IMG/VR virus record: IMGVR_UViG_3300043449_000060
Span: 1-23,243 of that record
Length of the DNA stretch: 23,243 nt
Strand: one strand, 5' to 3'
Source of the DNA: a virus
In this document: piece by piece, positions 15,545-21,376 of the stretch
Layout: the number at the start of each line of letters is the position of its first letter
Position numbering within the stretch: the first letter of the stretch is position 1
Program-made: the position numbers and the translations under genes
Notes under the pieces: generated by a model
Databases searched by the model: none
What the model saw: only the letters and a program-made list of their open reading frames with translations
Told to the model about the DNA's origin: nothing

Positions 15545-15554
15545 AAAAACTAGA
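15538..15554. promoter_or_regulatory. Operator-like inverted repeat TCTAG-N7-CTAGA
   Basis: Perfect 5-bp arms are separated by CAAAAAA. It overlaps the leftward extended -10, so binding of a repressor would block that promoter. The Cro/YdaS-like protein at 15665 is the obvious candidate binder. Confidence 0.45.
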
Positions 15555-15556
15555 GG

Positions 15557-15577
15557 TTTCTAGCGGTTTGATAGAAA
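15557..15577. promoter_or_regulatory. Operator-like inverted repeat TTTCTA-N9-TAGAAA
   Basis: Perfect 6-bp arms lie one DNA turn from the first operator and share its TCTA half-site. The right arm contains TTGATA, which could also be a -35 for a rightward promoter with a weak -10 TGTTAT at 15592. Confidence 0.4.
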
Positions 15578-15646
15578 TATTTAAAAATAATTGTTATCGG
15601 TATCCCTAATAGGGTTTTCACCTATATCGTTAGTGTTCTATCATTA

Positions 15647-15664: not shown

Positions 15665-15886
15665 ATGAACATCCCACACATTACCCCCGAAGAGAGGAGA
15701 GAACTGGCTGAAAAGGTTGGTCTCTCAGAACAATACATCTACCAATGCCTGACAGGAAGGCGAGAAATGTCTGCTTGGCAGGCTGTTTGGGTTGAGCAGG
15801 AATCAGGTGGCAAGATCACCAGAAAGATGCTCTGTCAGGGTAGCTGGCAGGCGATTTGGCCTGAACTGGTGGAGGTGCAGGCATGA
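15665..15886 (+). CDS. YdaS/Cro-like DNA-binding regulator, 73 aa
   Basis: A helix-turn-helix is visible at residues about 9-32: 'ERRELAEKVGLSEQYIYQCL', followed by TGRREMS. The pattern A-x-x-V-G-L-S-x-x-Y-I-x-Q-x-x-x-G-R-R and the ending 'SWQAIWPELV' match the YdaS/Cro group of small phage repressors. No ribosome site precedes the ATG, so translation may be leaderless. It likely binds the TCTA(G/T) inverted repeats just upstream and shuts down early transcription. The gene overlaps the primase-helicase start as ATGA. No CI-type partner or integrase is seen in the window, so lysogeny cannot be claimed. Confidence 0.78.
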   Translation: MNIPHITPEERRELAEKVGLSEQYIYQCLTGRREMSAWQAVWVEQESGGKITRKMLCQGSWQAIWPELVEVQA

Positions 15887-17937
15887 GTAGTTTGACAAGC
15901 ATATTCCCCAACGGGTTCGCCGTTGCTACTGAGAGCCAAGACTTGATTAGTCCTGTCGAGGGATTCACCAAGCATTGCGAGGCACAAGGGCTGGTGATCA
16001 GAGACTTGATCGCAGATGGAGAGATACATCGAGTGCCTCACATCTCTTCTAAGAAGGGTGCAGTTGATGGGTGGTATATCTTGCACCTGTCAGGCAAGAT
16101 TCCAGTTGGTGTTTGTGGCTGTTGGAAGGAGCCAACCTTTGAGTCCAAGTGGATGGCAGATATTGGGCGCAATATGTCGTTTTCTGAGCGACTAGAGCAT
16201 GACAAGTTGATCGCTGAGATCAGAGCCAAGCGAGAGGCAGACAGGCTTGCATCTCAACAGGTGGCGGCTGAGAAGGCAGAGGATGAGGTTTCAACTTATG
16301 CTGATGCCAGTGCAGACCATCCGTATTTGGTGAGGAAGAGGATAGAGCCTCATGGGATCAAGATTGATCGTGCAGGCAGGCTGGTTGTGCCTGTCATTGA
16401 CCAAGAAGGGGAAATCCTGTCGTACCAAACCATCGATGCTGATGGAAACAAGCGGTTTCTCAAGGGTGGCAAGATCGAGGGTGGTTTCTATGAACTCAGG
16501 GGAAATCGCAAGGTCATCTTCATTGGCGAAGGGTTCGCAACTTGTGCGTCAATTCACCAAGCGACAGGGTTCACAACTTTGGTGGCGTTTGATTGTGGAA
16601 ATCTCGCCAAGGTAGCCAAGAGTGCCAAGGAAATGTTCTTGGGTTCTCGGATAGTTATCTGTGCTGACAATGATCAGTTTACGGAGGGCAACCCTGGCCT
16701 CACCAAGGCGAAAGCGGCGGCTGGTTTGGTGTTTGGGGAAATTGTGTATCCAATCTTCAATGAGTCTGATCTGGCATCAAAGCCAACGGATTTCAATGAC
16801 TTGCATACCTTGCAGGGCATCGAGGCGGTCAAGGAGCAGATCGAGCGTGTGGCGTTGCCAGCCATAGACAAGTTGGCGTTTGAGTTCACTAGAGCAGATA
16901 GTTTGGAACTCACGGAGATTAAGTGGGTGGTGGATGATTACATTGAGGCGGACTCGCTGGCGCAAGTGTTTGGCGATCCAGGCGGCGGAAAGTCATTCGT
17001 CGCCATCGACTTGGCTTGTTGCGTTGCAACTGGTAAACCTTGGCATGGACATGATGTCAAACAGGGTTCTGTGTTCTACATCGCTGGTGAAGGGCATAAC
17101 GGATTAGCCAGAAGACTGAAGGCATGGCAGATTGGTAACGGGACATCTCTCGCCAATGTCCCCTTGTACAAGTCCCATCGTGCGGCTCAGTTGTACGATG
17201 CAACAGAGGCGGCAGTTGTGGCTGAGTCGATTAAGCAGTTGTCAGCGGAAGCGAACTGCATCCCATCCATGATTGTGATTGATACATTAGCCAGAAATCA
17301 TGGTGGTGACGAAAATAGCACTCAAGACATGAATTCCTTTATCCAACATCTGGATGTGTATCTGCGCCAACCTTGGAAATGTTGCGTCATGGTGGTTCAC
17401 CACTCAGGCGTGGCAGACAAGGATCGCTCCAGAGGCTCCACAGCCTTGAAAGGCGCATTGGATGCGGAATACAAGTGCCAACTGGATTCAGGCACCAAAA
17501 CCATAGCGTTCGAGTCCAAGAAGATGAAGGATGCGGAAATGCCAAGTCCTAAGAACTTCCAGATCACCCAAGTCGATCTACCCATCAACAACAAAAACGG
17601 AATGCCAGTCAAGGGTGCGTATCTGACAGCGGTAGACATTTCGGGATTGGTTAGCCAAGTGCAAAAGAAGACCTACCTCTCACCAAACCAAAAGCAAGTG
17701 ATGGAATGCTTGGTGATGCTAGAGGTCAATTTGCTACAAAATCACCAACTCAGACCAGTTGGATATGACGAGTGGCGAGACTGCGCCAAGGAGCATGGAG
17801 TTAAGAACAACAGATTTTGGGAAGTAGTCAAGAGCATGATCGCCAAAGAGATGATTTTGGAGGTCGATGGTGGGTATAAAAGTCATCCGAAACCATCCGA
17901 AAGTCATCCGAATCGGATAACATCGGATGGTAAGTAG
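15883..17937 (+). CDS. Primase-helicase: Toprim plus RepA-like ATPase, 684 aa
   Basis: The N-terminal part (to about 140) lacks an evident zinc finger. A Toprim primase domain follows at about 150-330: E216 in 'FIGEGFATC', D262 and D264 in 'VICADND', and 'DFNDLH' (303-308). A RecA-fold ATPase of the RepA/AAA_25 type follows: Walker A 'GDPGGGKS' (364-371), Walker B 'MIVIDT' (463-468) and 'VVHHSG' (504-509). The last 90 residues look like a winged-helix region ('YDEWRDCAKEHGVKNNRF'). The very end ('SHPKPSESHPN') is encoded by the CATCCG repeat array. It would unwind DNA and make primers at the phage origin. The start overlaps the regulator stop as ATGA. Confidence 0.87.
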   Translation: MSSLTSIFPNGFAVATESQDLISPVEGFTKHCEAQGLVIRDLIADGEIHRVPHISSKKGAVDGWYILHLSGKIPVGVCGCWKEPTFESKWMADIGRNMSFSERLEHDKLIAEIRAKREADRLASQQVAAEKAEDEVSTYADASADHPYLVRKRIEPHGIKIDRAGRLVVPVIDQEGEILSYQTIDADGNKRFLKGGKIEGGFYELRGNRKVIFIGEGFATCASIHQATGFTTLVAFDCGNLAKVAKSAKEMFLGSRIVICADNDQFTEGNPGLTKAKAAAGLVFGEIVYPIFNESDLASKPTDFNDLHTLQGIEAVKEQIERVALPAIDKLAFEFTRADSLELTEIKWVVDDYIEADSLAQVFGDPGGGKSFVAIDLACCVATGKPWHGHDVKQGSVFYIAGEGHNGLARRLKAWQIGNGTSLANVPLYKSHRAAQLYDATEAAVVAESIKQLSAEANCIPSMIVIDTLARNHGGDENSTQDMNSFIQHLDVYLRQPWKCCVMVVHHSGVADKDRSRGSTALKGALDAEYKCQLDSGTKTIAFESKKMKDAEMPSPKNFQITQVDLPINNKNGMPVKGAYLTAVDISGLVSQVQKKTYLSPNQKQVMECLVMLEVNLLQNHQLRPVGYDEWRDCAKEHGVKNNRFWEVVKSMIAKEMILEVDGGYKSHPKPSESHPNRITSDGK

Positions 17938-18742: not shown

Positions 18743-18981
18743 GAGGTAGACCATGCAGAACGGATACTGTCTGGTTTAAGCGCAAACTTGGAGAATCGGA
18801 GAGAAAAATCCTTTTGGTCGCTGGTCGTGGTGATCTGACTCAAGGATGGCATACATTGCTGGAAATCTATCAGAAACTGTGGAACAACGGATACAGACCC
18901 AAGGACGATCTGGATGATTTCTTAGGCATTGACCCGTCCGAGCCAGAAAAGCCTGTTGTAGGCGGTTTTAATGCGGTTTGA
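18739..18981 (+). CDS. 80-aa protein, unknown function
   Basis: It starts at ATG 18739, overlapping the RusA-like stop as ATGA. The N-terminus is basic ('MRGRPCRTDTVWFKRKLG'), followed by a helix with 'WHTLLEIYQKLWNNGYRP' and an acidic Pro-rich end. It is the last early gene before the origin-like region. No family is recognised. The basic start and mixed helices would allow DNA binding, but this is inference. Confidence 0.55.
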   Translation: MRGRPCRTDTVWFKRKLGESERKILLVAGRGDLTQGWHTLLEIYQKLWNNGYRPKDDLDDFLGIDPSEPEKPVVGGFNAV

Positions 18982-19041
18982 GAGGGTTTTAAGGAACTAT
19001 TCTCCGTCTGGTGTCAGGTATGGCTGGAATGCACCATCCGA

Positions 19042-19064
19042 CCCTTTCCCTTTTCCCGTTTCCC
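19042..19064 (-). other. G-quadruplex motif on minus strand
   Basis: Four CCC runs on the plus strand at 19042-19044, 19048-19050, 19055-19057 and 19062-19064, with gaps of 3, 4 and 4 bases, give a canonical G3N3-4 pattern on the minus strand. It lies about 30 bases from the first DnaA box. Confidence 0.5.
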
Positions 19065-19076
19065 GACCGACCAGTC

Positions 19077-19088
19077 GGTTAATTAACC
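19077..19088. repeat. 12-bp palindrome GGTTAATTAACC
   Basis: A perfect palindrome lies 4 bases before the first DnaA box. ACCGAC-CA-GTCGGT (19067-19080) overlaps its left side as a second inverted repeat. It is a possible binding site for an origin or repressor protein. Confidence 0.4.
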
Positions 19089-19268
19089 CAACTTATCCAC
19101 AGGGCAAATGATGAGTTATCCACAATTTCTTGATTTCTTTGCGTTAACTTACAAAAGCCTGTGGATAACTTGTGGATAACTACAAAATAACTTTACATAA
19201 TGAATGTTGTATGAATTAGACTTGCAAAACTGTCAGGGTTTACCCGTAGGTCTTGCGTTTTGGATGGG

Positions 19269-19316
19269 GGGGAGGGGGTCGGTCGCTGTCAGAGTTTTTG
19301 CTGTACCCCCCTCCCC
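19269..19316. repeat. GC-rich stem-loop, G-tract and C-tract
   Basis: GGGGAGGGGG (19269-19278) pairs perfectly with CCCCCTCCCC (19307-19316) across a 28-base loop, just upstream of the small-terminase-like gene. The left arm is part of a longer G7-A-G5 tract. A 3'-U-run is absent on both strands, so it is not a standard terminator. Confidence 0.45.
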
Positions 19317-19348: not shown

Positions 19349-19723
19349 ATGAGTGAACTTGAATTGAAAAAAAAGGTTGGTAGACCGAAGGGCGTAAAGA
19401 AACTCACCATCCAGCGATGGGCGGCGAACCCTAGCCTGTCGTTACCGAAGACGGATCACCAGAGGATCAAGGAACTCAAAGACCTGATGATCAACTCTGG
19501 TGGAAGGGATGTGGCGCAGAAGGTGATAGAGATTGCGTTGAACGATGACCACCCTGGTCAAATGGCGGCTCTCAAGATGTGTTTGGATAGGACGTTACCG
19601 ATCACGCTGTTTGACAAGGAAGCCAAGCAAAGGAATGCGGTAACGATTAACATCACGGGCATTGGCGAGATCAATCACGCCCAAACAATAGATGCTGAAG
19701 ATGTGGAGGATAAGAATGGATAG
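19349..19723 (+). CDS. terS: Putative terminase small subunit, 124 aa
   Basis: It starts at ATG 19349; AGGAG lies 12 bases upstream, rather far. The N-terminus 'KKKVGRPKGVKKLTIQRWA' is basic and could bind DNA. The middle 'RDVAQKVIEIALNDDHPGQMA' then 'LKMCLDRTLPITLF' matches the helical pattern of several phage small-terminase-like proteins (DUF5681 type). Position two genes before the large terminase supports the call. It would recognise packaging sites and recruit the large terminase. Sequence similarity in this group is low, so this is probable rather than certain. Confidence 0.6.
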   Translation: MSELELKKKVGRPKGVKKLTIQRWAANPSLSLPKTDHQRIKELKDLMINSGGRDVAQKVIEIALNDDHPGQMAALKMCLDRTLPITLFDKEAKQRNAVTINITGIGEINHAQTIDAEDVEDKNG

Positions 19724-20117
19724 TCTTGTAAAACTTTATGGGATGAGAACTCCCTATAAATCAGAACTTACTTTCTTTAAGGAAAGACCTGAAGTTGCTG
19801 GCATGGCGGCTGAAGACAATAAAATTATCTTAAATCCTTTTTCTACGCTTTCTCCTCAAGAGAAGATGGCTGTTGCGAAGAACGAGGCTTTGCGTATCTA
19901 TATGCGCCAAAACGACATAAGCCCTAACTTTGATTTAACAGGCTCACAACAAAAGATGTTTGTGGGTACTGAATATGAAAAAGACCCTGTTTCTGCCAAA
20001 CAATCTATCTTGGCTAGGATTCTTTCTAATGATCCTTCTGCCAAAGATGCAACCTTAGACCAAACCCTTGAGGCTCAGAAACTGCAAGAACAAATCATGC
20101 AAATGATGAAGAAGTAA
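19716..20117 (+). CDS. 133-aa conserved-type protein between terminase genes
   Basis: I use ATG 19716 because GGAGG lies 6 bases upstream; an ATG at 19692 would extend into the previous gene. The N-terminal half has 'GMRTPYKSELTFFKERPEV' and 'NPFSTLSPQEKMAVAKNEAL', then a helix 'RIYMRQNDI', and the C-terminus is a Gln-rich helix. I recall this pattern in aquatic phages next to the terminase, without a known function. It overlaps the terminase start as TAATG. A structural or packaging helper role is inferred from position. Confidence 0.6.
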   Translation: MDSLVKLYGMRTPYKSELTFFKERPEVAGMAAEDNKIILNPFSTLSPQEKMAVAKNEALRIYMRQNDISPNFDLTGSQQKMFVGTEYEKDPVSAKQSILARILSNDPSAKDATLDQTLEAQKLQEQIMQMMKK

Positions 20118-21376
20118 TGAGTGATCTGAACTTTTCCCTTCTCCCTTGGCAACAGGATGTTTTTGCTGACAAGACGAGGTTTAAGGTTGTGGCGGCAGGA
20201 AGAAGGTGTGGTAAGTCTAGGTTGGCGGCAACGACATTGATTATTGAGGCGTTGAAGTGTCCGCAGGGTTCGGCGGTTTTGTATGTGAGTCCTACGATGG
20301 GGCAGTCTAGACAGATCATTTGGGATTTGTTGTTGGACATTGGTCGAGAGGTGATTCAGGGCAGTCATGTAAACAACTTGGATATCACTATGATCAATGG
20401 TGCGAAGATTTATGTCCGTGGCGCAGACCGCCCTGATACCTTGCGTGGAGTCTCTCTTACTTATGCTGTACTGGATGAGGTAGCTGACATAAAGCCAGAG
20501 GCATGGGAGCAAGTTATTAGGGCATCACTGTCAGACAAAAAGGGCAGAGCGATGTTCATAGGCACCCCCAAGGGTAGGAATTGGTTCTATGACCTTTTCA
20601 AACTTGGCGAAAGCGAGGAAGACCTTGATTGGAAATCTTGGCACTTCACCACAAGAGACAACCCCCTGATCGACCCAACTGAGATTGAATCAGCCAAGAA
20701 AACCCTGTCTACCTTTGCTTTTAAGCAAGAATACATGGCTAGTTTCACCAATGCTGGTAGCAACATCTTCAAGGAAGAGTGGATCAAGTACGGGGAAGAG
20801 CCTGAGTATGGCAGTTACTACATAGCCTGTGACTTAGCAGGATTTGAGGAAGTTGCCAAACAAGCGGCTAATTCCAAGAAAAGGCTAGACCAGACGGCTA
20901 TTGCTGTGGTGAAAGTTACGGATGATGGCAAATGGTTTGTCAAAGAGATTGTCTATGGTAGTTGGGACATCCGTGAGACTGCGGCAACGATCCTGTTGAA
21001 GATGCGTGAATACAAGCCTTTGAGTGTGGGAATTGAGAAAGGTGCGCTAAAAAACGCAGTTTTGCCATATTTGTCTGACTTAATGCGTAAAAATAATGTA
21101 TATTCGCACATAGTTGACTTAACGCATGGCAACAGGAAAAAGGCTGACAGAATTATCTGGAGTCTCCAAGGGCGGTTTGAGCATGGACGTATTGTGCTGA
21201 ACTCTGAGGAGGATTGGGATGAATTTAAAGATCAACTTCTTTTATTTCCCGCCATTGGAGTGCATGATGATTTGCCAGATGCTCTCTCATATATAGATCA
21301 AATGGCTGTCACTTCCTACTTTGTGGATGACCAAGAAGATGATTGGGAGCCAGTAGACATAATAAGCGGGGTTTGA
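20117..21376 (+). CDS. terL: Terminase large subunit, 419 aa
   Basis: The ATPase domain has Walker A 'AAGRRCGKS' (26-34), a Walker B-like 'TYAVLDEVADIKPEAW', and coupling motif 'MFIGTPKGRN'. The nuclease domain has an Asp in 'IACDLAGF', an acidic motif in 'VGIEKGAL', and the final 'HDDLPDALSYI' typical of RNase H-like terminase nucleases. It is the motor that drives DNA into the prohead and cuts the concatemer. At 419 aa it is at the short end of the family. It starts in TAATG of the previous gene, and the portal ATG follows the stop by 2 bases. Confidence 0.93.
   Translation: MSDLNFSLLPWQQDVFADKTRFKVVAAGRRCGKSRLAATTLIIEALKCPQGSAVLYVSPTMGQSRQIIWDLLLDIGREVIQGSHVNNLDITMINGAKIYVRGADRPDTLRGVSLTYAVLDEVADIKPEAWEQVIRASLSDKKGRAMFIGTPKGRNWFYDLFKLGESEEDLDWKSWHFTTRDNPLIDPTEIESAKKTLSTFAFKQEYMASFTNAGSNIFKEEWIKYGEEPEYGSYYIACDLAGFEEVAKQAANSKKRLDQTAIAVVKVTDDGKWFVKEIVYGSWDIRETAATILLKMREYKPLSVGIEKGALKNAVLPYLSDLMRKNNVYSHIVDLTHGNRKKADRIIWSLQGRFEHGRIVLNSEEDWDEFKDQLLLFPAIGVHDDLPDALSYIDQMAVTSYFVDDQEDDWEPVDIISGV

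Follow-up and report, generated by a model that had tools for sequence, protein, structure and literature searches.

The window analysed here is a stretch of 23,243 bp of viral DNA from IMG/VR and is probably a fragment. A primase-helicase gene with Toprim_3 and AAA_25 domains lies on the forward strand (15883–17937), and it is the replication gene that accompanies the unit described below. Farther along the same strand are an ORF of 124 amino acids (19349–19723), which had no family match and by its position is probably the terminase small subunit, and the gene of the terminase large subunit (20117–21376, phrog_2). The window has its least stable duplex at 15547–15640, where a gap separates the leftward early genes from a Cro-like gene at 15665, and this is probably a divergent early promoter region. 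Contig ends near TerL were considered as natural genome ends and rejected, as the ends were irregular on inspection.

The non-coding gap between the end of an early ORF at 18981 and the start of the next ORF at 19349 holds four exact copies of the DnaA box TTATCCACA within 87 bp (19093–19179), and no copy was found elsewhere in the window. Box 1 (19093–19101) and box 2 (19116–19124) are on the forward strand, box 3 (19160–19168) and box 4 (19171–19179) are on the reverse strand, and box pairs form long inverted repeats. Dinucleotide shuffles gave a mean of 0.23 copies per window, and four copies were reached in 0 of 100. These results bear out the original prediction, which had noted four perfect boxes, two forward and two reverse, between the early genes and the terminase, followed by an A/T-rich stretch. 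AT pairs make up 73% of the sequence after the boxes (19180–19235), and by nearest-neighbour energy only one 40-bp duplex in the window is less stable than that at 19176–19215.

This duplex overlaps an AT-rich conserved motif of 25 bp on the forward strand (19192–19216; TTWACATAATGRNNNTTGTATRAA = TTTACATAATGAATGTTGTATGAAT, family consensus TTWACATAATGRNNNTTGTATRAAG). The motif is presumably the element that unwinds, and the earlier reader of this DNA had overlooked it inside the A/T-rich stretch. In an alignment of 17 close relatives, the block right after the boxes, TTTACATAATGAATGTTGTATGAA, was about as conserved as the boxes. Box 1 was invariant and box 2 nearly so (conservation 0.99), and boxes 3 and 4 were mostly retained (0.88, the lowest of the four, and 0.97); box 3 is often degraded in relatives, and the usual variant of box 4 is TTATGCACA. 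TTAACATAATGGATGTTGTATAAA was present at the corresponding place in relatives with a primase only 33–36% identical. Judged by this conservation, the boxes and the 25-bp motif are two halves of one conserved unit (19093–19216). The motif fell in the least stable 1% of its own locus in 80 of 110 relatives, compared with 5% of random positions. A weak duplex alone does not separate an origin from a promoter, because the −10 region of a promoter is also unstable.

The earlier reader had also missed the separateness of a G-rich tract containing a perfect inverted repeat of 10 bp (19266–19316; arms GGGGAGGGGG at 19269–19278 and CCCCCTCCCC at 19307–19316). The tract GGGGGGGAGGGGG upstream of the terminase is kept in box-less relatives of the terminase (86–90% identity). 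Since the hairpin stays with the terminase whether the boxes are there or not, it is probably a packaging signal separate from the unit.

Conservation and geometry of the unit

As an independent test, IMG/VR was scanned for the motif alone, which yielded 87 sites flanked on each side by 300 bp. Within that distance, one or more exact boxes were present 5' of the motif at 75 of the 87 sites and 3' of it at 12, and these counts are not independent events because the IMG/VR contigs are partly redundant and the loci were picked by sequence patterns. In 89 dereplicated IMG/VR segments, counted from the start of the motif, boxes recurred at −100, −77, −62 and −21, and additionally at −111 and −87. 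The boxes of the window stand at −99, −76, −32 and −21; boxes 1, 2 and 4 correspond to the positions −100, −77 and −21 of the distant relatives, and box 3 is off their grid. It confirmed the conservation that had been named as a check of the original prediction, as the boxes are retained at fixed positions beside replication genes in the relatives.

Single substitutions at the four grid positions were mostly A3>G (TTGTCCACA) and C5>G (TTATGCACA). Others affected positions 1 and 9 and in a few cases position 6, T1>A being common at one grid position, and none was found at positions 2, 4, 7 and 8. DnaA tolerates TTWTNCACA, and the TTGTCCACA form is known in other bacteria; the variants in the relatives would thus be mostly of types that DnaA tolerates. 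Some relatives carry just one or two exact boxes. Across 16 records, TTATCCACA was nearly confined to the cluster, and a reversed control pattern was found once.

Dense clusters of DnaA boxes without the 25-bp motif were also observed in many other virus contigs (L161–L240, for example L204, L176, L188 and L200), with 20 exact boxes in about 400 bp in L204. Most box clusters among those listed were of this kind.

Genes accompanying the unit

The unit accompanies three primase lineages, one at least 75% identical, one 28–40% identical and a third in L406 (CAINTF010000009.1), a phage contig with TerL, TerS, its own lineage of primase and the unit. L406 is binned in an uncultured Acidimicrobium MAG, where misbinning is likely, so its host is uncertain. 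Relatives of the terminase (86–90% identity) with other replication genes had no box cluster, and the cluster was present in terminase relatives with either primase lineage. As the cluster is missing with other replication genes and is kept with unrelated late genes, the boxes belong to replication and not to packaging.

The motif was forward in all 38 loci that have the terminase type of the window and a primase at least 75% identical, and it was reversed in 52 of 56 loci with other late genes; L406 shows the reversed layout too. In 24 loci (10 forward and 14 reversed units), the flanking genes on both sides were mainly co-directional with the primase, with one exception. Since both orientations occur amid co-directional genes, a late-operon promoter cannot account for the two of them, and a late promoter as its sole function was ruled out. 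A small ORF near the unit common to all unit-bearing lineages was not found.

At six of the 87 motif sites, fewer than two box-like sites were present 5' of the motif, the actual number being none. In five of the six, the motif begins right after a gene of about 220 amino acids, and two of these genes, when scanned, gave weak PHROG matches to replication initiation, the best one O-like (3e-5). A protein search found six relatives with this O-like replication-initiator gene, and in all of them the motif was located 21–25 bp past it. Phages with the O-like gene and the motif and without 5' boxes were L293 (8727–9389), L322, L363 and L433–L438. The sixth box-less site belongs to an unrelated phage, L360, and has three iteron-like repeats resembling ACAATTTGACC at −45, −26 and −18 (L360:2689–2733). 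The Methylophilales phage MEP301 has a remote relative of the O-like gene, but a convincing motif was not found in it. These sites, which are few and related, suggest a putative origin in which the motif stays constant and the initiator sites vary.

End overlaps of 99–127 bp in four relatives indicate that they are complete circular assemblies of about 35–36 kb. One complete relative encodes a helicase, a Cas4-type exonuclease, SSB, Sak4 annealing proteins, a primase, a portal, a capsid and an endolysin. The families listed for it included neither an integrase nor a partition protein, DnaB or DnaA, and apart from primase-type matches no replicative DNA polymerase was among them, so such a phage would need the host polymerase.

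All matches of the terminase protein to cultured phages were below 60% identity, so that no cultured host was identified. When the region was compared by blastn with cultured phages and plasmids, there was no match, or the matches were short and mostly insignificant. The box cluster was absent from distant cultured phages with a similar early-gene layout (primase about 32% identical), namely Alteromonas PB15 and XX1924, Salicola CGphi29 and Idiomarinaceae 1N2-2. Neither cluster nor motif was found in the best ten loci of prophage-like primase relatives from 398 Pseudomonadota genomes, and a sequence search of the primase against solved structures found no match.

Discussion

In this study, we found DnaA boxes above chance, an easily melted AT-rich element at a fixed distance from them and the conservation of both with replication genes across relatives, and these are features of an oriC-type origin. 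DnaA sites at fixed positions next to replication genes make a start of replication by the host DnaA probable. The reading that fits best is that the unit at 19093–19216 is a phage replication origin opened by the host DnaA, and we consider it rather more probable than otherwise. Host DnaA would bind the boxes, which keep fixed distances and occupy both strands, and the bound DnaA would melt the adjoining 25-bp motif. The phage primase-helicase (Toprim and AAA_25) and the host DNA polymerase III would then enter the bubble.

The original prediction had proposed a bacterial-type origin that uses the host DnaA and expected a turning point of GC skew at this place. The origin itself stands as the best-supported reading on the basis of the conserved boxes at fixed positions by the replication genes, but the GC skew gave no support. 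No turning point was found at the unit; the skew follows the gene strand, and it says little in a phage of 35 kb. A turn of the GC skew is a common sign in chromosomes and does not define the origins of phages or plasmids. Besides the missing turn, the cultured relatives without the cluster, the occurrence of the motif without boxes, the relatives left with a single exact box and the position of box 3 off the grid speak against an origin. The motif itself could serve as a promoter or an operator. A phage with its own primase-helicase might not need DnaA.

The unit resembles an E. coli-type oriC in that TTATCCACA boxes on both strands lie beside an AT-rich, easily melted stretch. It differs in its length (about 130 bp), its four boxes and its specific 25-bp motif, and no 13-mers were recognised by eye. 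The boxes and motif were also scanned for in 84,980 bacterial and archaeal genomes (species), and the unit was found only in the L406 phage contig within a MAG, which rules out a copied host oriC. Coliphage 186 needs the host DnaA.

The origins of iteron plasmids (P1, F, pSC101 and R6K) also combine an AT-rich stretch with neighbouring sites for the host DnaA, and it is reported that DnaA alone can begin the opening in plasmid P1 (PMC5043065). Unlike these plasmids, the window contained no plasmid initiator gene and no recognisable iterons, and iteron-like repeats were seen only in L360. Phage lambda is likewise a tailed phage with DnaA sites in its origin region (PMC3985674). In lambda, however, the O protein opens the origin and DnaA stimulates transcription, whereas no O-like gene was found near the unit, whose boxes keep to a fixed grid beside the presumed melting site. 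The phages with an O-like initiator (L293, L322 and L433–L438) share with the window the 25-bp motif in the neighbourhood of replication genes, but they have no 5' DnaA boxes and their initiator gene ends 21–25 bp before the motif. For a Pseudomonas phage, an origin with predicted DnaA boxes was drawn from Ori-Finder output (PMC11512268). A description of the unit of boxes and motif was not found in the open-access literature.

The motif, as it occurs also without boxes, could be a promoter or an operator. The boxes would then recruit DnaA as an activator or a repressor and tie the transcription of the late genes or the origin region to the host cell cycle, as near the lambda origin, where DnaA-footprinted boxes lie near pO (PMC3985674). 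The motif does contain a −10-like match, CATAAT, in the window it is directed towards the terminase genes, and it precedes the terminase operon in L360 and late genes in the L293-type phages. A single promoter-like match is, however, the level of shuffled sequence (0.8 expected), and the absence of a conserved −35 element in the aligned relatives also counts against a promoter. Moreover, the boxes track the replication genes and not the late genes, and in one large group, 52 of 56 loci have the unit reversed relative to genes that are co-directional. We therefore regard a DnaA-controlled promoter as unlikely.

It is still less likely that a phage-encoded protein binds the 9-mers and that their match to the DnaA box is due to descent or coincidence. 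Phage initiators are able to bind repeats, and two other lineages combine the motif with an O-like initiator gene or with iteron-like repeats. Against this, the sites are identical to the strongest DnaA consensus and vary mostly by substitutions that DnaA tolerates, the boxes stay unchanged while the primases diverge to about 33% identity, and the unit-bearing lineages have no small ORF near the unit in common.

E. coli datA is a chromosomal site that regulates DnaA and is not an origin. It is a cluster of DnaA boxes like the unit, but it has no adjoining melting motif. Four strong sites per genome would, as replication multiplies them, bind a large number of DnaA molecules, and the boxes could act as such a sink, lowering free DnaA and blocking host initiation. 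We consider this titration very improbable, as a sink requires neither a fixed spacing to a melted motif nor a linkage to the replication module, and relatives with just one or two exact boxes exist. That the unit is a packaging (pac or cos) signal, as its place just upstream of the terminase genes and beside the G-rich hairpin may suggest, was rejected as having almost no likelihood, because the boxes do not track the terminase, the 86–90% identical relatives keeping the G-rich tract without them and unrelated late genes occurring with them; the idea is kept for the hairpin.

Taken together with the loci without boxes, the origin reading can be extended, as a tentative model more doubtful than the origin itself, to a phage origin of modular build. 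In it, a melting element of 25 bp that does not vary would be combined with interchangeable initiator sites, which may be DnaA boxes, an O-like initiator gene or iteron-like repeats, in a cassette able to flip and to move between genomes, and the tailed freshwater phages with boxes would leave initiation to the host DnaA.

Freshwater phages that carry the unit probably start the copying of their DNA by borrowing the host DnaA, as far as the comparison of sequences indicates. If it is true, a peak of replication is predicted at the motif in every relative, and the 25-bp element, which is shared while its initiator sites can be swapped, would be a sequence handle for the origins of many uncultured phages. 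It would also mean that a common group of uncultured freshwater phages begins replication with the initiator of the host, and that the replication of these phages is tied to the DnaA level and the growth state of the host.
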